Shown here: piece after piece, positions 8,774 to 35,066 of the stretch
Layout: every line of letters starts with the position of its first letter
How positions within the stretch are numbered: position 1 is the stretch's first letter
Assembly: GCA_017521005.1 (NCBI GenBank)
Contig: JAFXEC010000025.1
Span: forward strand, 1 to 40,788
Direction: 5' to 3'
Length of the DNA: 40,788 nucleotides
Source of the DNA: Clostridia bacterium
Lineage (GTDB): Bacteria > Bacillota > Clostridia > TANB77 > CAG-465
The notes under the pieces: generated by a model
What the model saw: only the letters and a program-made list of their open reading frames with translations
The model's database searches: none
What the model was told of the DNA's origin: nothing
Position numbers and translations under genes: made by a program

Positions 8774-9524
8774 TATACCAAAGATGGATAAAGTAAAAGA
8801 AGGAATAAACAATATTAAAAATAAAGTAAAAAACAAAAAGGAAAACAAGGTTAAAATACACACAAGATATTATGGACTACTTTTTTTAATGATTCTTTTA
8901 GGAGTAGTAACAGTAGCAAATAATATAAATGTATATAATACATTAAGCAAAGAAAACTATATAGAATACAAATTACCAAGTGATGTACAAACAGAAGCGA
9001 ACAATGTAGAAGTGGCAAAGTACGAAACCGCTATAAGCAGTATATCAACAAATGTATCAAACATTAAAGAGGATAAAACAAGTGACACTATAGATAATGA
9101 AGAAGAGAAAAAATTAAAAAGAGTATGGCCGGTTGATGGAGAAATAATAAGAGAATATGCAAAAGACACATTAATATATTCTAAAACATTAGGTATGTGG
9201 TTAATACATACAGGTATAGACATAAAATCAGAATTAGGTGAGAATGTAAAATGTATAGCAGATGGTAAAGTAATATCTATTGAGAGTAATAATTTCTATG
9301 GTAATGTTGTTAGAATAGAGCATGAGGACGGATATATATCTGTATACTCAAATTTAGCCGAAGATAATCTTCCAAAGGTAAATCAAAAGATAAATAAAGG
9401 TGAAATAATTGGAACTATTGGAGATACAGCATATGGAGAAAGTGAAGAAGAAAGTCATCTCCATTTTGAAATAATAAAGGATGGAACAAATATAAATCCT
9501 GAAGAATTCTTAAATAATCAGTAA
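8763..9524 (+). CDS. spoIIQ: SpoIIQ-type M23 (LytM) membrane protein
   Basis: Probable forespore half of the SpoIIQ-SpoIIIAH channel that joins forespore and mother cell. A basic N-terminus leads into one membrane segment (about residues 39-56), then a linker, then an M23 domain. Both halves of the zinc site are intact: HTGID (H149, D153) and HLHFE (H232, H234). That resembles clostridial SpoIIQ; the B. subtilis protein has lost a zinc ligand. AAGGAG at 8745-8750 precedes ATG 8763. Placement between spoIID and spoIIID supports the name; a different M23 cell-wall enzyme cannot be excluded from sequence alone. Confidence 0.82.
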   Translation: MKFNIPKMDKVKEGINNIKNKVKNKKENKVKIHTRYYGLLFLMILLGVVTVANNINVYNTLSKENYIEYKLPSDVQTEANNVEVAKYETAISSISTNVSNIKEDKTSDTIDNEEEKKLKRVWPVDGEIIREYAKDTLIYSKTLGMWLIHTGIDIKSELGENVKCIADGKVISIESNNFYGNVVRIEHEDGYISVYSNLAEDNLPKVNQKINKGEIIGTIGDTAYGESEEESHLHFEIIKDGTNINPEEFLNNQ

Positions 9525-26465: not shown

Positions 26466-28127
26466 ATGGAAGAGCTAGAATTTGATGATTTAATAGATAA
26501 AGAATATGCGCCGAAAGTAAACTTGCCTAAATCTGAAATCGATGGGTGGATATCTAAACTTTCAATGCATTCAAATGATCCAGAAATGTTAACTAAATTA
26601 TATACATCAATCCTTATGGATGATAATGTTATGTTTATTCTAACAAGAATAAGCCAAAATCCAATATTTAGACAACATTTTCCAGAGTTTTATGTAAAAA
26701 ATAAATATGGAGAAAGTGTAATAAACTGTCAACAAAATACAGTGTATCATAGATATGGTGTGTTTAAACATACGTTGTGTACTGTTGAAAGTGTTGGAAG
26801 GGATAGTTTAAAGTTTAACGCACAAGAATTAAAAATATTAAAGTGGACAATGCTTTTACATGATATAGGCAAACCTATGGCTAAAATGATAAATGGTTCT
26901 GGAAGTGATTCTTTTGCTGGCCATGATGATATATCTTGTGAAATGGCGGTTGATATATTAGATAGATTTTCATTTACAGATGATGAGAAAAATGTAATTC
27001 TAACTTTAATAAAATATCATGATAAATTCTTAAACGAAGGAGATCTTACATATGATAATTTAACTTTCCTAGCTAAAGAATTAGGAGATAAAAGAGATTT
27101 ATTCTATCTTTTAATAGAAGTTAAAGTTTCAGATAATAAAGCGAAGAGCCTTGATGTATACAATAGATTCATAAATGTACAAAATAAATATTTTGAATTT
27201 GCAAATGAGTATTTTGGTAATGCAGAAGAAAATAAGATGTTTGGGGCTATACTACCAAATGCAAAATTCGTTGTAGATTTAGATGATGACGATGATGAAG
27301 AAGAGGATACTACTACAAAACGTGAAGGACCAGCAAGTGTATATGAAGATGGCGGAAGTGATGTAGATATAACAGAAAAAATTATAGTTGGATTATGTAG
27401 AGATGTTACTTCTGGTAAGAGATTAAAATGTTATTATCAACCAATTATTGATCTTAAGAATAAAGTGGTTGAAGGCTATGAAGTGTATTATAAAATAATA
27501 ACTGATGAAAACTTTTCATATGATCAAATTATCAAGAAAGCAAAAGAATTTGAAAGATATGATAAGTTACAACAAATGTTGTTTGTAAATTCGTTGGAAA
27601 GATTTAATGAATTAAACCCATCTTCGAATTTGACAGAATATATAAACATAGATGCAAGAAGCTATAAAAACTATGTAAATAAATCTAGAATATTTGATTC
27701 TATAGCAGGTAAAAAAGTCGTTGTAGATTTCAATAATTTTGAGTTAATCAATACTAACGATTTAAGAGAAATGGTTGCAGAAATTCAAAAAGTTAAAGCA
27801 AAAGCTTGTATAGATAATTTTGAATCAAGTAACAAAACAGTTAGAGATATAGATAAAATAGAACCTAAAGTTGTTAAATATAAAATTGTGGATACTGATG
27901 AGAATACAATTAAGCAAATTAAAGAGCTTGTATCATATTGTACAGCAAGATTAATAAGACTTGTTGTTTTCGGTGTGGATTCTGCGGAAAAACTAAATGC
28001 ATTAATTAGCATAGGAGTAAGATATGTGGAAGGTAAGTATTTCGGCAGACCAACAGATGGTTTAGATATGACAAAAGCAAAAATTGAAGAATTGCTAGCA
28101 CAAGCTGGTGAAGAATTGATTTGTTAA
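26466..28127 (+). CDS. HD-domain protein with a catalytically dead EAL domain
   Basis: The N-terminal half holds an HD phosphohydrolase core like that of CCA-adding enzymes: H132-D133 in LLHDIGKP, then GHDDISCEMA and IKYHDKF. An acidic linker (DLDDDDDEEED) near residues 276-288 leads to a C-terminal EAL fold of about 230 residues. There the catalytic motifs are lost: EVY (339-341) replaces EAL, DNFESS (450-455) replaces DDFGTG, and only the fold markers remain (YYQPIIDLKNKVVEGYE; GVRYVEGKYFGRP). It should not cleave c-di-GMP but might bind a nucleotide or act as a scaffold. AAAGGAG gives the start. The flavin-reductase gene follows 18 bases after its stop. Confidence 0.87.
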   Translation: MEELEFDDLIDKEYAPKVNLPKSEIDGWISKLSMHSNDPEMLTKLYTSILMDDNVMFILTRISQNPIFRQHFPEFYVKNKYGESVINCQQNTVYHRYGVFKHTLCTVESVGRDSLKFNAQELKILKWTMLLHDIGKPMAKMINGSGSDSFAGHDDISCEMAVDILDRFSFTDDEKNVILTLIKYHDKFLNEGDLTYDNLTFLAKELGDKRDLFYLLIEVKVSDNKAKSLDVYNRFINVQNKYFEFANEYFGNAEENKMFGAILPNAKFVVDLDDDDDEEEDTTTKREGPASVYEDGGSDVDITEKIIVGLCRDVTSGKRLKCYYQPIIDLKNKVVEGYEVYYKIITDENFSYDQIIKKAKEFERYDKLQQMLFVNSLERFNELNPSSNLTEYINIDARSYKNYVNKSRIFDSIAGKKVVVDFNNFELINTNDLREMVAEIQKVKAKACIDNFESSNKTVRDIDKIEPKVVKYKIVDTDENTIKQIKELVSYCTARLIRLVVFGVDSAEKLNALISIGVRYVEGKYFGRPTDGLDMTKAKIEELLAQAGEELIC

Positions 28128-29119: not shown

Positions 29120-29173
29120 AAAACTTCTAAAATAACACATACTATTTGTATGATATATTTTGGAAGTTTTTTT
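29120..29173 (+). terminator. Terminator-like hairpin whose loop holds the next start codon
   Basis: A 15-bp stem (29120-29134 with 29156-29170, one G-U pair), 21-base loop and a T7 run (29167-29173). The ATG at 29150 lies in the loop and the right arm is inside the first TauE/SafE half gene. Confidence 0.8.
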
Positions 29174-29497
29174 GCGGGAATAATTAATGGAATGTTTGCA
29201 AGTGGCGCTGGACAAATATTAGTTTTTATGCTGATTTTTATACTCAAGCAAGATACATATAGGTCTAGAAAATTAAGCCTTTTTGTAGTAGGAATAACAA
29301 GTATATTAACACTATTAAGATATATAAAAATGGTAGATGTTAATCTCAAAGAAATTATTATAGTCATAATTACTGGAATTATTTTTGGAACAATTGGAAC
29401 AAAGGCTATGAAAAAAATAAATCCTAATATTCTTAATATGATTTCCGGGCTACTAATAGTAGGGTTATCTTTATATAAAATATTGAGAGGTGGATGA
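29150..29497 (+). CDS. TauE/SafE-type permease, N-terminal half
   Basis: A 115-aa, very hydrophobic protein with three or four membrane segments. The first, FFAGIINGMFASGAGQ, is the signature TauE/SafE repeat. The family usually has two such repeats in one protein of about 250 aa and moves sulfonates, sulfite or other anions outward; here the two repeats are separate genes. The ribosome site is weak and no promoter is visible, and a terminator hairpin spans the start. It overlaps the second half by four bases (ATGA). Substrate unknown. Confidence 0.8.
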   Translation: MIYFGSFFAGIINGMFASGAGQILVFMLIFILKQDTYRSRKLSLFVVGITSILTLLRYIKMVDVNLKEIIIVIITGIIFGTIGTKAMKKINPNILNMISGLLIVGLSLYKILRGG

Positions 29498-29874
29498 TGT
29501 TGATATTAATATCTAGTATTTCAAGTATACTTGCAGGTATGGGAATAGGCGGAGGTGCAATATTTGTGCTTCTGTCTACAATGTTTGTAAATTTTGACCA
29601 AAAAGAGGCGCAATTATTAAATTTGATTTCGTTTTTATCTGTGAGTTTTGGAGCGACAATTTTTAATATAACAAATAAAGAAGTGGATGTTAAAATGGCT
29701 AAAAAGATGTTGCCGTTTACCGTTATTGGTAGTTTAGTTGGCACGTATTTTTTTAATAAAATAAATGAGCAAAAATTAAGCAAATACTTTACATACTTTT
29801 TACTACTAATTGGAATTTATGAAATAATTTCAAGTGTAAATAAGATGAAAAAAGAGAAGAATAATACTAAATAA
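29494..29874 (+). CDS. TauE/SafE-type permease, C-terminal half
   Basis: A 126-aa membrane protein with about four segments. It begins with the second family repeat (ISSILAGMGIGGGAIFVLL) and has a matching cytoplasmic loop (DVKMAKKMLPFTVIGSLVG) before further helices. AGGTGG lies directly before ATG 29494. It probably pairs with the upstream half to form one transporter. The tail is Lys-rich. Confidence 0.8.
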   Translation: MMLILISSISSILAGMGIGGGAIFVLLSTMFVNFDQKEAQLLNLISFLSVSFGATIFNITNKEVDVKMAKKMLPFTVIGSLVGTYFFNKINEQKLSKYFTYFLLLIGIYEIISSVNKMKKEKNNTK

Positions 29875-29889: not shown

Positions 29890-30036
29890 ATGGAGTGTAT
29901 AAAAGGTATGATAGCAGGACTTGTGCTAGGAATGGTTGCTGGTGCGTTTGTTGGCGCTTGCAATAGTAATGCTATTTGTGATTGTTTAAGAGAAGGAAAA
30001 AGAGAAATCAAGAGATTTAAAAGAAAATATATGTAA
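29890..30036 (+). CDS. 48-aa glycine-rich single-pass membrane protein
   Basis: This gene is short but well supported: AAGGAG (29877-29882) lies eight bases before ATG 29890, and a strong terminator starts at its stop. The product has one Gly/Ala-rich membrane helix (GMIAGLVLGMVAGAFVGAC), three Cys in CNSNAICDC and a basic tail (REGKREIKRFKRKYM). It looks like a YtxH-type small protein. It lies 15 bases after the TauE pair and is probably cotranscribed with it. Function unknown. Confidence 0.75.
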   Translation: MECIKGMIAGLVLGMVAGAFVGACNSNAICDCLREGKREIKRFKRKYM

Positions 30037-30070
30037 AATAAAGCTCGAGTAAATCGAGCTTTATTTATTT
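30036..30070 (+). terminator. Intrinsic terminator after the 48-aa gene
   Basis: Perfect 13-bp stem (30036-30048 with 30054-30066), 5-base loop, then ATTTTT. Its core resembles, but is not identical to, the repeated terminator at 23031 and 25277. Confidence 0.9.
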
Positions 30071-30092
30071 TTAATTTATCTTGTAAATTCTA

Positions 30093-30122
30093 TTGAAATT
30101 TTACTAAAATATATAATATAAT
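30093..30122 (+). promoter_or_regulatory. Promoter of the DUF4190-like gene
   Basis: TTGAAA (30093-30098), 18-bp spacer, TATAAT (30117-30122). Confidence 0.7.
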
Positions 30123-30147
30123 TAAACTGCAAATACGGAGGATGTAT

Positions 30148-30612
30148 ATGGCAATTGTAAGTTTAATATTAGGAATAGTATCTGTAGCGCTTTGTTGGAT
30201 GCCTGTAGTTGGATTAATAGTATCTGCTATATGTGTTGGCGCAACAGCGTTAATGAAACGTAAAAAAGAATACGGAAAAAACAAAAGAACAATGAAGTCT
30301 GTAGCTTTAATTATGGCTATAACAGGGCTTGTTATTTCTATATTTGTAACTGGAATTAACGTTACAGAAAGTGCCATCATTAATAAGACTAATGAAGAAG
30401 CATTAAACGATGTTAAAGCTAGTGTTAGTGCGATGACTTTGGCGCAAGCACAACAAACAGCAGATTATGCGTGGAATGAAGCGAGAATGAAGGGGCTAAG
30501 AAACGAAAGAATGACACAATATATATTTAATGCAATAAGTAATTCTGGACTAGATGCTGATGCATATATTTTAGAAGTATCTAAAACAGGAGTTATAGTA
30601 AAAGTAAGATAA
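30148..30612 (+). CDS. DUF4190-like two-helix membrane protein
   Basis: A 154-aa protein. I start at ATG 30148, since GGAGG at 30137-30141 is too close to the ATG at 30142. Two membrane hairpins, MAIVSLILGIVSVALCWMPV and MKSVALIMAITGLVISIFV, flank a basic loop (KRKKEYGKNKR), which is the DUF4190 pattern. The outer domain of about 85 residues is helical (MTLAQAQQTADYAWNEARMK) and ends in a short beta strand. It has its own promoter and terminator. Function unknown. Confidence 0.75.
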   Translation: MAIVSLILGIVSVALCWMPVVGLIVSAICVGATALMKRKKEYGKNKRTMKSVALIMAITGLVISIFVTGINVTESAIINKTNEEALNDVKASVSAMTLAQAQQTADYAWNEARMKGLRNERMTQYIFNAISNSGLDADAYILEVSKTGVIVKVR

Positions 30613-30618
30613 TAAGAT

Positions 30619-30663
30619 GACATTTTGGGAGGTAATATTAATCCTAAAATGTCTTCTTTTTTT
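30619..30663 (+). terminator. Intrinsic terminator after the DUF4190-like gene
   Basis: A 12-bp stem (30619-30630 with 30642-30653, one G-U pair), 11-base loop, then TTCTTTTTTT. Confidence 0.88.
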
Positions 30664-30695
30664 CTAAAGATAACCTTACTTTTTGTAAAAATTAC

Positions 30696-30724
30696 TTGCT
30701 ATTATGACCAATATATAGTAAAAT
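30696..30724 (+). promoter_or_regulatory. Promoter of the pilin-like/TadZ-like operon
   Basis: TTGCTA (30696-30701), 17-bp spacer, TAAAAT (30719-30724). No terminator is seen from here to 35091. Confidence 0.65.
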
Positions 30725-30767
30725 ATATGTGTTAAAAGATTACATAAAATAAGAATGGAGGGTTTTT

Positions 30768-31097
30768 ATGGTATACAATAAAGTTTTTAAGGTATGCGCA
30801 ATGATTTCTATAATAGCGTTATTAGCAACAACAGTAGTTTTTGCTAGCACAGATTTAGAAGTAAAAGATAACGAAATTGTAGGTGGAGTTATGACAGTAC
30901 TTAAAAATGTTCAAACTTATTCATGGCCAGTAGCAGTGCTAGTATTAGTATATGGTATGTATCAATACTATGTTGTTGGTTCAGAAGCTTTCGAGCAAAA
31001 AGTAAGTGGACAAAAACTAATAGTTGGACTTTCAGTGTTTATGACAATAATTCAATGTCTACCATTAGTATATGCAATAATTACAATATCACAATAA
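30768..31097 (+). CDS. Small exported two-helix protein, VirB2/TrbC-like pilin candidate
   Basis: A 109-aa protein with a signal peptide (cleavage likely after VVFA, residue 26), a short polar head, then two membrane helices joined by a small loop: TYSWPVAVLVLVYGMYQYYV, loop with GSEAFEQKVSGQK, and LIVGLSVFMTIIQCLPLVYA. That is the layout of VirB2/TrbC major pilins of type IV secretion systems. Family identity is by architecture only; other small exported proteins could look similar. It is the first gene of an operon with a TadZ-like ATPase. A VirD4-type ATPase is at 5533-7641. Confidence 0.65.
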   Translation: MVYNKVFKVCAMISIIALLATTVVFASTDLEVKDNEIVGGVMTVLKNVQTYSWPVAVLVLVYGMYQYYVVGSEAFEQKVSGQKLIVGLSVFMTIIQCLPLVYAIITISQ

Positions 31098-31165
31098 TTG
31101 ACGAAGGACTAAACTAGGGTATAGATAAAAACAAAAGAAATTTTAATAACAAGGGTGGTAACTAA

Positions 31166-32899
31166 ATGAAAGTATTATTTGGATTAAATAATGATGATAC
31201 GGTAAAATCCATAGTAAAATATTACGAGGAAACATATAAAGAAAAGGTAGAGTATAAAAATGTATACTACTTTAAGCAAGCTGTACAAGAATTAACAGGT
31301 GGTAATTATGATAGAGTAGTATTACTAGAAAATCTAGAAAAATATCCAACAAACAATCAAGCTCAAATAGATGACTTTATCTTTCATAATATAGATGCGA
31401 TGACAGATGAGTTTGATGCAAAGAAAATAGTTTTTATAGCATCAGACAGAAGAGAACTTGGAGACGAGTTCTTAGCCAAGTTATTTAACATAGGTGTATA
31501 TACAGTACTAACTGGTAGAGATAGAACAAAGAGTAAAACAGCTCAAGCTATTAATACACCAAAGATGAAAAAAGATGTAAAACAATATTACGAAAATAGC
31601 GCAAGCAAAAATGTGTATAGCAAGATTGAAGTTTCAGAAATGGAAATTCAAAGAATAATAAGCTATTATCAAAACCAAAAAGGTGATACATCTAAATATG
31701 TTGAAATATTTGATAAAATAGGGGCTCAATATACAAACGAGCAATTAAGAATAATAGTAGGATTTTTACCAGCATCAGTTAAGGACTTCTTAAAGGAAAA
31801 TAGCGATAGATATAACCAAGTTTTAATTAATGTAGAAGTAAGTCCTACACCAACAACTCCAGTAAACAATACGGTTGAAGGTGTAAAAGAGGTTGTACAT
31901 ATAGAAAAACAACCAGAAATTATAGAAAAAATAGTTGTAAAACAACAAAACACACAAGCTGCAGTTGTAACTAAAGTTGTAGAAAAAGAAGTTGTTCGTA
32001 ATGTATACGAAGTACCGAAAGACTATAAAAAAGTTGTATGTGTTGTAGGTGCTCCAAAGGTTGGAACAACATTCTGTATAAATGCTATATCAAATGCATT
32101 ATATAGAAAAGATGTTAAAGTTGGTATTGTAGACTTAACAAAGAAAAGAGATACATATACGCTTTATACATATGATAACGAAGGTAAGAGAGCAATAGCA
32201 GCAGAAAGTATGAAATATGCATCAAATGGTCTTAATGAACCATTAATGTACGGTAAACTAAGTATATATACTGGTATGCCAGGTGAAGATAGAAGACAAT
32301 ATGATGCAGCAAAAATGTTAGAAACAGTATCTAACAATAACAGTATAGTATTATTAGATTGTGATTTCTCTACACCAGTAGATTATTACAGATTAGCTCA
32401 AGAAATATATATTGTACAAGATATGGATGTGTTAAACGTTAGTCTTCTTACAATATTCTTAAGAGAAATAAAAGCTAGAGGAATTCCAATGAACAAGGTA
32501 AGAGTAATAATAAACAAGCATGTTAAATGTGCGTTAACAGCAATGGATATCTTAAATGGTATAGCTGTATACTCAAGCCCAGACTTAAAGATGTTTGATG
32601 ATTTATTTGTATCATCAGAAATGACATATTATACAATTCCGTTTGATCAAGAGAACTATGTAAAATATGTTGAAATGATGTATAAATATACAAATACATT
32701 CAAATCATTTACAGATGAATTTAAGGAAAGTATAGACTATATAGCAAATGCTATTTATCCACTAGGAGTGACTAAATCTTCAGGTGCAAGTAGCATAGTT
32801 AATAAATACAAAAAGAATGGTGGACTAAATTTATTTAAGAAGCCTAAAATAACAGAAGTAAAAACTACGTCTTCAGGATTCGAGAAGGTTGTAGAATAA
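31166..32899 (+). CDS. TadZ/CpaE-like ParA-fold protein with altered P-loop
   Basis: The first 140 residues look like a receiver-type fold (MKVLFGLNNDD; YDRVVLLENL; KIVFIASDRR), then a helical part, a Val/Glu-rich linker (about 225-285) and a MinD/ParA-type domain from about 290. Its P-loop reads GAPKVGTT (295-302): both signature lysines of MinD-type KGGVGKT are replaced (by A296 and T301). Walker B-like SIVLLDCDF is kept. Similar P-loops occur in TadZ/CpaE-type proteins that place pilus or secretion machines at the cell pole, so polar localisation is an inference. AGGGTGGT precedes the start. It is followed 12 bases later by the dead-GGDEF gene. Confidence 0.78.
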   Translation: MKVLFGLNNDDTVKSIVKYYEETYKEKVEYKNVYYFKQAVQELTGGNYDRVVLLENLEKYPTNNQAQIDDFIFHNIDAMTDEFDAKKIVFIASDRRELGDEFLAKLFNIGVYTVLTGRDRTKSKTAQAINTPKMKKDVKQYYENSASKNVYSKIEVSEMEIQRIISYYQNQKGDTSKYVEIFDKIGAQYTNEQLRIIVGFLPASVKDFLKENSDRYNQVLINVEVSPTPTTPVNNTVEGVKEVVHIEKQPEIIEKIVVKQQNTQAAVVTKVVEKEVVRNVYEVPKDYKKVVCVVGAPKVGTTFCINAISNALYRKDVKVGIVDLTKKRDTYTLYTYDNEGKRAIAAESMKYASNGLNEPLMYGKLSIYTGMPGEDRRQYDAAKMLETVSNNNSIVLLDCDFSTPVDYYRLAQEIYIVQDMDVLNVSLLTIFLREIKARGIPMNKVRVIINKHVKCALTAMDILNGIAVYSSPDLKMFDDLFVSSEMTYYTIPFDQENYVKYVEMMYKYTNTFKSFTDEFKESIDYIANAIYPLGVTKSSGASSIVNKYKKNGGLNLFKKPKITEVKTTSSGFEKVVE

Positions 32900-32911
32900 T
32901 AGGAGATTGAT

Positions 32912-33973
32912 ATGGTATTTATAATAATTTGTTTAATATTAATCATACTAGCGTTAGGAACATTAATATTCTTCCTAATTAGAAGAAATAATTATTACAA
33001 ATTGGCGCTAGGAAACATGGCTGGTTTTGTTATAATGCAAAGAATGTTTGAACTTATGGCATCAGCTATACCAGCATCAAAGAAAATAGAAGAATTAAAT
33101 AATATAATTCTAGAAGTTTTCAATAGTAAAAGCTCAACAATATCAATATTTGATGGAATGGAATATCACATAAAAGCAACAAATGTTGAAGAAGTATTTA
33201 GAGAAAGTATAAAAAACTTAGCTGAAGAACAAAACTTCAAGGCTAATGCTCAAAAGAATATATCTAAATATTTAGTATCAGCAGGTGGAAGACTATTAGG
33301 ATATAAATCAGCAGTTGAAAGAAGCATTCGTTCAGCAATGTTCTCACCTATATATTATAATGGTATGTACTTAGGATTCTGGTTACTAGAAGATAATGCA
33401 GAAAATGCGTATGATTCTATATCTAAAGAAGAATTAGCAAAACTTAAAGACCATATAGGTGTATTTATAGAAAATGTTCTAAGTCAAGAATCAATTGAAG
33501 GTGCATATAATACAGATAAACAAACTGGATTCTATAACAACCTTTACTTGTATTCAAATGTAAGACAAAGAACAACTACTGAATCTAATTCAGTACTTAC
33601 ATTAATGCAACTTGCTAACCTAGGCGAAATAAACACTACATATGGTAGAGAAGTTGGTAATAGGCTTCTAGAAAGAGCGGCAAATTTAATAAAAGATATA
33701 TTTAGTAATGAACATATCTTTATTAGATATAGCGGAAGCAAATTCTGTATAGTAAGTTTAGGAATGGGTGCAGAATCTTTACATTCAACAGTAGAGAGAT
33801 TCATAAGCAATGTAAAAATGGAAGAAGAAATCGCTAGAGGCGAAAAAGTTTCATTAAATATAAATGTTGTAATGCACAATATACAACAACAAAGCAACAT
33901 AGATAGAGAATTAGCAAAAATGTCTAATTATCTAGATGGAATGACAGATACAAATACAATAAAGATAATATAA
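32912..33973 (+). CDS. Membrane protein with GAF-like and degenerate GGDEF domains
   Basis: A 353-aa protein with an N-terminal membrane helix (residues 1-24), a helical/GAF-like middle (about 45-200; FSPIYYNGMYLGFWLLED is typical) and a C-terminal GGDEF fold starting at TDKQTGFYNNLYL. The active-site loop RYGGDEF is RYSGSKF (272-278), so no diguanylate cyclase activity is expected. Metal-binding Asp before LxN is also not seen in LMQLANLGEINTTYG. It may be a receptor or scaffold. AGGAGATTG gives the start. No terminator separates it from ireB. Confidence 0.83.
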   Translation: MVFIIICLILIILALGTLIFFLIRRNNYYKLALGNMAGFVIMQRMFELMASAIPASKKIEELNNIILEVFNSKSSTISIFDGMEYHIKATNVEEVFRESIKNLAEEQNFKANAQKNISKYLVSAGGRLLGYKSAVERSIRSAMFSPIYYNGMYLGFWLLEDNAENAYDSISKEELAKLKDHIGVFIENVLSQESIEGAYNTDKQTGFYNNLYLYSNVRQRTTTESNSVLTLMQLANLGEINTTYGREVGNRLLERAANLIKDIFSNEHIFIRYSGSKFCIVSLGMGAESLHSTVERFISNVKMEEEIARGEKVSLNINVVMHNIQQQSNIDRELAKMSNYLDGMTDTNTIKII

Positions 33974-34003
33974 TAAATATTGTATAAGAAAGGAGGAATA
34001 AAT

Positions 34004-34249
34004 ATGGATCAACACACAGCCGTATTTAGTCCACAAAAAGAAGAGTCAAAAAGAGTAAGAGAGATAATGGAACAAGTGGTGGCGGCACTTAAAGATAAGG
34101 GCTATGAACCAGTAAGCCAAATTATCGGATATATATTATCAGGAGATCCAACATATATAACATCTCATAACAATGCAAGAGCATTAATTTGCAAAGTAGA
34201 AAGAGATGAGTTGTTAGAAGAAATGATAAATAGCTACTTAAACAACTAG
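34004..34249 (+). CDS. ireB: IreB family regulatory phosphoprotein (DUF965)
   Basis: IreB is a small substrate of the IreK/PrkC kinase in enterococci and affects cell-envelope stress responses. I start at ATG 34004 after AGGAGG (33991-33996). The 81 residues include EVVAAL-type helix (REIMEQVVAALKDKGYEPVS), QIIGYILSGDPTYITSHNNARALI and ERDELLEEMINSYL, all usual. ireB-ruvX-DUF1292 is the conserved Firmicute order. Confidence 0.93.
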   Translation: MDQHTAVFSPQKEESKRVREIMEQVVAALKDKGYEPVSQIIGYILSGDPTYITSHNNARALICKVERDELLEEMINSYLNN

Positions 34250-34256
34250 GTGACTT

Positions 34257-34673
34257 ATGGGAAAAATATTAGCGATAGATTATGGCATGGCAAGAGTAGG
34301 TCTTGCAATAACTGATGCTTTAAAGATAACAGCACAACCTATGGATACTTTGGAAACAAAAGGTGATAGCGAAATCTTAATTAGTAAAATAAAAGAGATT
34401 ATGGCTACATCAAAACTAGAAAGAGTAGTAATAGGATATCCAAAACATATGAATGGAGATATATCTGAAACTGCTAAAAAAATAGATGATGTGATTGTTA
34501 AAATTGAAGCTTTAGGATTACCAGTAACTAAATGGGATGAACGTTTAACAACAGTTATGGCGTATAATACTATGAAGGAAATGGGAATCAAACAAAAAGA
34601 TAAGAAAGTTCATGCAGATAGACTTGCTGCTATGTACATATTACAAGACTATTTAAGTAGTCAAAATTATTAG
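34257..34673 (+). CDS. ruvX: Holliday-junction-type nuclease RuvX (YqgF family)
   Basis: RuvX/YqgF is an RNase H-fold nuclease linked to resolution of junctions or to 16S rRNA 5' processing. Motifs: ILAIDYGMARVGLAITD, ERVVIGYPKHMNG, VTKWDERLTT and HADRLAAMYILQDYL; the acidic catalytic positions are intact. AGGTGA precedes ATG 34257, seven bases after the ireB stop. 138 aa is normal. Confidence 0.95.
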   Translation: MGKILAIDYGMARVGLAITDALKITAQPMDTLETKGDSEILISKIKEIMATSKLERVVIGYPKHMNGDISETAKKIDDVIVKIEALGLPVTKWDERLTTVMAYNTMKEMGIKQKDKKVHADRLAAMYILQDYLSSQNY

Positions 34674-34727
34674 AATATATTTGCTTTTTTAGCAAATAAT
34701 ATTATAAAGAATTTGGAGGAGTTAAAA

Positions 34728-35066
34728 ATGGGAGAAAATTGCACACATGATTGTTGTTCTTGCACAGGATGCGGACATGATCACGAACATGATGTAGAAG
34801 AAATGGAAACAGGAATATTAACATTTGTTGATGATGAAGGAAACGATGTTAGATTCGAAATACTAGATGTTGTAACTCTAGATGAAAAAGAATATTTAGT
34901 AGTTCTACCAGTTGATGAAACTGAAGGCGGAGTTCTAATTCTTGAAATAAAACAAGAAGATGGCGAAGAAGTATACGATACAGTTATGGATGACGAAGAA
35001 GCTGAAAGAGTATTTGCTAAATTCCAAGAAGAATATGGCAATGACGATGAAGAAGACGCTGAATAA
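34728..35066 (+). CDS. DUF1292 (YrzB) protein with a Cys/His N-terminus
   Basis: Acidic 112-aa protein. I start at ATG 34728, since the TTG at 34713 lies within the GGAGGAG ribosome site region. The body is the DUF1292 beta fold (LTFVDDEGNDVRFEILDVVT; EYLVVLPVDE; VYDTVMDDEEAERVFAKF). The N-terminus adds CTHDCCSCTGCGHDHEHD, a likely metal-binding segment not found in all members. Function unknown; conserved partner of ireB and ruvX. Confidence 0.9.
   Translation: MGENCTHDCCSCTGCGHDHEHDVEEMETGILTFVDDEGNDVRFEILDVVTLDEKEYLVVLPVDETEGGVLILEIKQEDGEEVYDTVMDDEEAERVFAKFQEEYGNDDEEDAE

Follow-up and report, generated by a model that had tools for sequence, protein, structure and literature searches.

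A three-gene locus upstream of ireB

The DNA analysed here, which we call the window, is a stretch of 40,788 nucleotides that forms contig C34 of a 1.18-Mb draft genome of a Clostridia bacterium. The subject of this analysis is a set of three adjacent genes on its forward strand. The first (30768–31097) encodes PIL109, a membrane protein of 109 amino acids with a signal-peptide-like N-terminus and a helical hairpin, which we propose as the membrane anchor of the second protein. This second protein, TADZ (31166–32899; 577 amino acids), is of the TadZ/CpaE type with an atypical receiver, a linker, and an atypical ParA-like ATPase. The third gene (32912–33973) is optional and encodes a GGDEF membrane protein of 353 amino acids. 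It is followed on the same strand by ireB (34004–34249, with its ATG at 34004; PF06135 IreB, 123 bits), which heads the downstream ireB-ruvX (yqgF)-DUF1292 genes. An earlier reading of the sequence, referred to here as the original prediction, had placed the three open reading frames and ireB exactly as they are found.

That prediction also had the genes running into ireB with no terminator between them, which was borne out: a scan of 30000–34800 found no intrinsic terminator between PIL109 and ireB, the sole one in that region lying at 30036–30066. Its claim of one promoter fared worse because promoter-like sites in the region were not enriched and occurred at chance level (25 versus 30.9 expected from shuffled sequences).

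To place this locus we searched 56 genomes, consisting of the window's own, 34 of its family, and 21 others of its order, which we take to be TANB77 of the GTDB. Genomes (G, with G000 the window's own), contigs (C), and loci (L) are given by label, and the families of the order are labelled f1–f5, with f1 being that of the window (35 genomes, G000–G034). The order TANB77 is described as entirely uncultured (PMC9606305).

PIL109 and TADZ form a conserved pair

Full-length TADZ was found in 54 of the 56 genomes, and a fragment of its C-terminal part where a contig of G043 ends brings this to 55/56 across the five families. ireB is likewise missing from the sole genome negative for TADZ (G003), whose locus is therefore probably unassembled. 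We read the neighbourhood at 50 loci, and PIL109 was upstream of TADZ in 50/50, including those where the link to ireB is broken. The gap between the two genes ranges from -23 to 151 nucleotides and is mostly below 80, with the genes overlapping in two loci. At L035, we identified PIL109 by eye, and it is separated from TADZ by a short open reading frame. The neighbourhood with ireB is kept in f1, f3, f4, and f5 and not in f2, where the pair sits by ATP synthase and smpB genes (smpB at L031). Because the pairing survives the loss of ireB linkage, the conserved unit is the two-gene pair. This co-arrangement, retained in five families, is far beyond chance. The predicted chromosomal module was therefore recovered across the order, and its gene order is kept in relatives. 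The further claim that all three genes are fixed applies to the pair, the GGDEF gene being optional.

In a class-wide sample, full-length TADZ occurred only in members of the order and six other genomes had partial matches. The idea that the locus is a mobile element or defence gene was rejected, as there was no match in phages or plasmids and no PADLOC hit.

TADZ is a relative of TadZ outside of Tad clusters

The TADZ model consists of a receiver-like alpha/beta domain (residues ~1–120; 31166–31525), a helical region (residues 135–220), a disordered, charged linker (residues ~221–286; 31826–32023) with pLDDT <50, and a ParA-like domain (residues ~287–535; 32024–32770, from the model and fold search). 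The domains are modelled with confidence. The length of the linker varies from 65–100 amino acids in f1 to approximately 480 in f5.

Motifs were read from an alignment of 32 homologues. The P-loop, which is G-A-P-K-V-G-T-T in the window (32048–32071), follows the pattern G-x-x-K-x-G-T-(T/S), and none of the 32 has a lysine at position 2 or 7. Both the model and the homologues thus agree with the original prediction of a ParA fold with a receiver-like N-terminal domain and a P-loop without both lysines. What it had missed is the lysine at position 4 (K298), which is invariant in 32/32 together with D323, D398, D400, F401, and T403. A Walker B-type DxDF is likewise invariant. In the receiver-like domain, a glutamate (E55) is found at the presumed phospho-acceptor position in 32/32; judging from its place at the end of strand 3 in the model, E55 would be the equivalent of the phospho-acceptor.

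A fold search with the TADZ model returned ParA, BcsQ, MinD, and FlhG proteins with TM-scores by target of up to ~0.77 for the ParA domain. One match, 3fkq, extended over both domains (558 columns) and is, we presume, the structure of TadZ from Eubacterium rectale. The E. rectale TadZ structure has an atypical receiver and ATPase (PMC13170226, PMC11217815). At the level of sequence, Pfam CbiA matched 7 of the 32 family members, and a sequence-only search of the PDB with TADZ gave nothing or low-complexity matches to the linker (huntingtin and similar). We also considered a bacterial tyrosine kinase, with a Wzz-like membrane partner and a CapB-type kinase, and rejected this because the Walker A motif GxxGxGK(S/T) is missing in TADZ.

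A homologue from another family (L085 in G185) matched the family profile with an E value of 8e-40 and has the motifs GNRKAGTT, DLT, and DMDFDT. It adjoins a SAF-domain (CpaB-like) gene, a ParA-like gene, and a T2SSE gene, which together make up a Tad cluster. This ties the TADZ subfamily to Tad by both homology and context. In the order itself, the neighbours of TADZ at the loci read are ireB, ruvX, and housekeeping or cell-wall genes, with no CpaF, TadB, TadC, or CpaB. The TadZ-like identity that had been predicted is therefore upheld by the match to 3fkq over both domains and by the homologue in the Tad cluster. TADZ is a genuine TadZ relative that is an orphan in this order; it is TadZ-like in anatomy and its gene context is not that of a Tad system.

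A paralogue of the N-terminal half of TADZ, with no ATPase domain and a Cys-rich C-terminus, is encoded at 8845–9957 of L091 (G031:C5), near recA and recX (gene names assigned by eye).

PIL109 is best regarded as a family of its own

The PIL109 model has an N-terminal helix (residues 2–22), which we judged by eye to be a signal peptide, and then a helical hairpin (residues 36–70 and 75–108), consistent with the two-helix protein with a signal peptide described before. Conserved features are YS-x-P in the first transmembrane helix, LPL-x-(Y/F)A in the second, and a charged loop with an invariant glycine. No significant family match was found for the window's PIL109 in Pfam, NCBIfam, or PHROG. 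A relative (L041) scored 25.1 bits against PF18895 (T4SS_pilin), just under the cut-off of 26.6. A fold search with the PIL109 model gave no significant match, and none of the solved structures matched the hairpin.

The window's genome also encodes a chromosomal type IV secretion system (T4SS) on C30 (G000:C30; L195, 4420–14376), with three tandem VirB2-like pilins, a double pilin, a PrgI-like protein, a split VirB4, and a VirB6-like protein. Clusters of this C30 type recur in all five families of the order. The VirB2-like pilins of this cluster allowed us to directly test whether PIL109 is a pilin. With signal peptides included, the PIL109 profile matched the pilins at P 1.2e-6. When only the hairpins were compared, the match dropped to P 0.047, which is worse than reversed decoys (0.003 and 0.014). 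As a positive control, the same pilin profile recovered the double pilin at 2e-21. Tests conducted family by family agreed with this decoy-level result. The apparent match had come from the signal peptide, and we therefore rejected PIL109 as a T4SS pilin. These results go against the predicted VirB2/TrbC identity. PIL109 is best called a hairpin family of its own, outside of assigned families. Two further matches of the PIL109 profile in T4SS loci (L196 and L202) were discarded upon inspection as a sortase-like protein and an unrelated protein with a single transmembrane segment.

The third gene encodes an apparent GGDEF pseudoenzyme

The third protein has a transmembrane region, a GAF-like middle region that was read by eye and is not called by Pfam, and a GGDEF domain (PF00990, 57 bits, cut-off 23.8). 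Its signature reads RYSGSKF (residues 272–278), in which SGSKF (33731–33745) replaces GG(D/E)EF. Across an alignment of 20 homologues, the catalytic glutamate of this motif is lysine (11) or arginine (9) in 20/20 and the D-x-D-x-F-K metal site is lost. The RxxD I-site for cyclic di-GMP (c-di-GMP) occurs in 0/20, positions -9 and -6 never being R and D. By its motifs, then, the domain is catalytically inactive as predicted, and the suggested role as a nucleotide sensor is weakened by the missing I-site.

Relatives encoded elsewhere in the genome in f2 are similar in length, match most of the profile, and have DIDHFK, RDTD, and RFGGEEF intact. One of them (G035, L219, 7336–8469) is an intact-looking transmembrane GGDEF diguanylate cyclase just 5' of flagellar genes. 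Taken with the glutamate reversal and the lost metal site, this intact-looking relative makes the window protein look like a descendant of a membrane diguanylate cyclase that has become a pseudoenzyme.

At the locus, the GGDEF gene is present only in f3 and part of f1. It is missing from f2, f4, f5, and one f1 subclade, which amounts to more than one third of the genomes with TADZ. On the TADZ tree, both losses within f1 fall in lineages that have no pilus-type ATPase. A strict dependency of the GGDEF gene on the pilus was rejected, since the association is suggestive in f1 and broken in other lineages.

Two other features lie upstream in the window. At 29150–29874 are two short, adjacent open reading frames that by eye resemble halves of a TauE/TSUP-type permease and are found 5' of the module in many f1 genomes. 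At 26466–28127 is a gene for a protein with HD and EAL domains (PF01966, PF00563), in which the EAL motif is EVY and the remaining motifs look degenerate. A homologue of this gene adjoins rplM in G031 as well.

TADZ is retained without each candidate client machine

We asked which envelope machines accompany TADZ. T2SSE ATPases, which include those of the type IV pilus and CpaF, were found in 40/56 genomes with no match in 16. The VirB4 of the C30-type T4SS was found in 42/56 and is missing in 14. A third machine is represented by a cluster on C17 (G000:C17; L095, 5769–11883) that encodes a split VirB4-like ATPase, a receiver/CbiA (MinD/TadZ-like) protein, CpaF, TadB, and a 251-amino-acid protein of unknown family. 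By our own reading of strong matches, a C17-type VirB4 is present in 51/56 genomes and missing in G009, G039, G044, G052, and G053. In one f1 subclade, CpaF and TadB are gone from this cluster and the rest is kept.

TADZ was kept in genomes lacking these machines wherever the locus was assembled. Six genomes (G014, G016, G017, G023, G026, and G027) have neither a T2SSE ATPase nor a T4SS VirB4, G044 has neither a T2SSE ATPase nor a C17-type VirB4, and G039 has neither a C17-type nor a T4SS VirB4; all of them keep TADZ. Because TADZ persists without each machine and without two at once, no single machine explains it. The original prediction had looked to VirB4 or Tad genes in related genomes; such genes are encoded elsewhere in the same genome, which leaves room for a link, and none of them is obligatory.

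Type VII secretion (T7SS) was rejected as a universal client. A YukD model found nothing, and the EssC-like (FHA-FtsK) protein of G051 had no counterpart in the other 55 genomes, G000 included. The G051 cluster (L092, G051:C2, 160–10146) contains WXG100, the FHA-FtsK ATPase, and a small YukD-like open reading frame. Just after this ATPase is a paralogue of TADZ consisting of the ATPase domain alone, with the P-loop GSRQSGTT.

A proposed membrane-anchored scaffold

The explanation we favour, to which we give a probability of about 40%, is that PIL109 and TADZ together make up a scaffold of the TadZ/CpaE type that is anchored in the membrane and by which envelope machines are recruited or positioned. 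The observations behind it are the pairing of the genes, their chromosomal location, their order-wide and machine-independent retention, the TadZ fold, and the degenerate motifs. CpaE/TadZ is described as binding ATP to dimerise even though its Walker A is deviant, and in a model CpaE dimers encircle the Tad motor as a ring at the inner membrane (PMC13170226). Service of TadZ-like proteins in machines other than Tad has a precedent in TsfV of T7SSf (PMC11217815), and the TADZ-ATPase paralogue of the G051 T7SS cluster is a further case. TADZ may similarly bind nucleotide and dimerise without a normal hydrolysis cycle. PIL109 could offer it a docking site in the short, charged loop on the cytoplasmic side of the hairpin, and the receiver-like domain and long linker of TADZ would then recruit or position the envelope machines present in a given genome. 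Possible clients are the type IV pilus, the chromosomal T4SS, and the VirB4/CpaF cluster. The dead GGDEF protein might serve certain lineages as an additional subunit for docking, with a possible link to the type IV pilus.

Several points weigh against this explanation. We infer the contact between PIL109 and TADZ from adjacency only, and the absences were scored on draft metagenome assemblies. None of the 56 genomes lacks all three machines, so TADZ could have a dedicated role in any one of them via redundancy. The link between the GGDEF protein and the pilus comes from two losses in f1 and has exceptions in both directions: the gene is present in G029, G032, and G044, none of which has a pilus-type ATPase, and T2SSE ATPases occur in f2, f4, and f5, where the dead GGDEF gene is missing.

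A broader form of the scaffold idea is that the pair is an order-wide landmark independent of any machine, in which TadZ escaped the Tad pilus, gained PIL109 as an anchor, and organises several machines with the charge-reversed GGDEF protein as an optional subunit. We consider this form somewhat unlikely.

Less probable again is that the pair belongs, at a dispersed location, to the C17-type cluster. This cluster is the most widespread of the three machines, its VirB4 is present in every genome that has neither a T2SSE ATPase nor a T4SS, and it includes CpaF and TadB, which are parts of Tad and thus among the proteins that TadZ usually serves. However, the five genomes without a C17-type VirB4 keep TADZ, and the cluster has its own receiver/CbiA protein (L095, 7938–9176) with an intact Walker A.

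We think it very unlikely that the locus encodes a compact machine for pili or secretion, with PIL109 as a VirB2/TrbC-like pilin, TADZ as its ATPase, and the dead GGDEF protein as a membrane scaffold. PIL109 does share its topology with VirB2, L041 comes close to the PF18895 cut-off, and a VirB4 and true VirB2-like pilins are encoded elsewhere in the genome. By contrast, the comparison free of signal peptides is at the level of decoys where the double pilin control is clear, and the hairpin matches no solved structure. There is also no motor, platform, or VirB4 at the locus, no VirB4 or VirB6 gene adjoins PIL109 at the loci read, and the pair is kept both without a T2SSE ATPase and without a T4SS. 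The compact machine of the original prediction is thus not supported.

A second-messenger receptor complex, in which TADZ would be under the control of a GGDEF protein that binds c-di-GMP or GTP, seems no more plausible. There is precedent in PelD, a membrane protein with GAF and degenerate GGDEF domains that acts as a c-di-GMP receptor via an intact RxxD I-site (PMC7112168). The degenerate-looking HD-EAL protein upstream and the intact motifs of the f2 relative would fit as well. However, the I-site that PelD needs is the one missing here, the catalytic glutamate is reversed in charge, and many genomes with TADZ have no GGDEF gene at the locus.

An equally improbable role, that of a MinD-like division or polarity regulator replacing Min, would suit the ParA/MinD fold and near universality of TADZ, and neither f4 nor any of the 35 f1 genomes has a true MinD (TIGR01968 over cut-off). 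Yet MinD is present in f2, f3, and most f5 genomes and coexists there with TADZ, which itself has no match to the MinD family in an NCBIfam scan (TIGR01968) and no division genes alongside it at the loci read.

If the membrane-anchored scaffold is correct, the TadZ fold can serve the envelope in general as a scaffold, outside of any one pilus or secretion ATPase. This would provide a first handle on how surface machines are organised in small-genome, largely uncultured gut Clostridia, and the pattern of absences among relatives makes the idea testable. From the original prediction, the chromosomal module, the TadZ type, and the inactive GGDEF domain carry over into this explanation, and the pilin, the compact machine, and the fixed GGDEF gene do not.

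Comparison with known systems

PIL109 resembles VirB2/TrbC-type T4SS pilins (PF18895) in having a signal peptide and a two-helix hairpin. It differs from them in its conserved motifs, in a sequence relation at decoy level, and in having no VirB4 alongside. The third protein resembles PelD and other degenerate GGDEF receptors as a membrane protein of an envelope system with a GAF-like region and a dead GGDEF domain. By contrast with PelD, it has lysine or arginine for the catalytic glutamate and no RxxD I-site, and no Pel genes were seen alongside.

TsfV of T7SSf is a T7SS component with a TadZ-like receiver domain (PMC11217815). The likeness is that of a TadZ-like domain in an envelope machine of Clostridia and can be compared with the TADZ-ATPase paralogue next to the T7SS ATPase in G051. 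TsfV is described by its receiver domain. TADZ lies outside of any T7SS cluster, in a genome without such an ATPase.

TadZ/CpaE is known as a part of the Tad (type IVc) pilus, and TADZ shares with it an atypical receiver followed by an atypical ParA-like domain with a degenerate Walker A. Unlike TadZ/CpaE, TADZ is found outside of Tad clusters and is kept without any T2SSE ATPase. It is further set apart by its long linker, its invariant P-loop lysine at position 4, and its pairing with a membrane hairpin protein.

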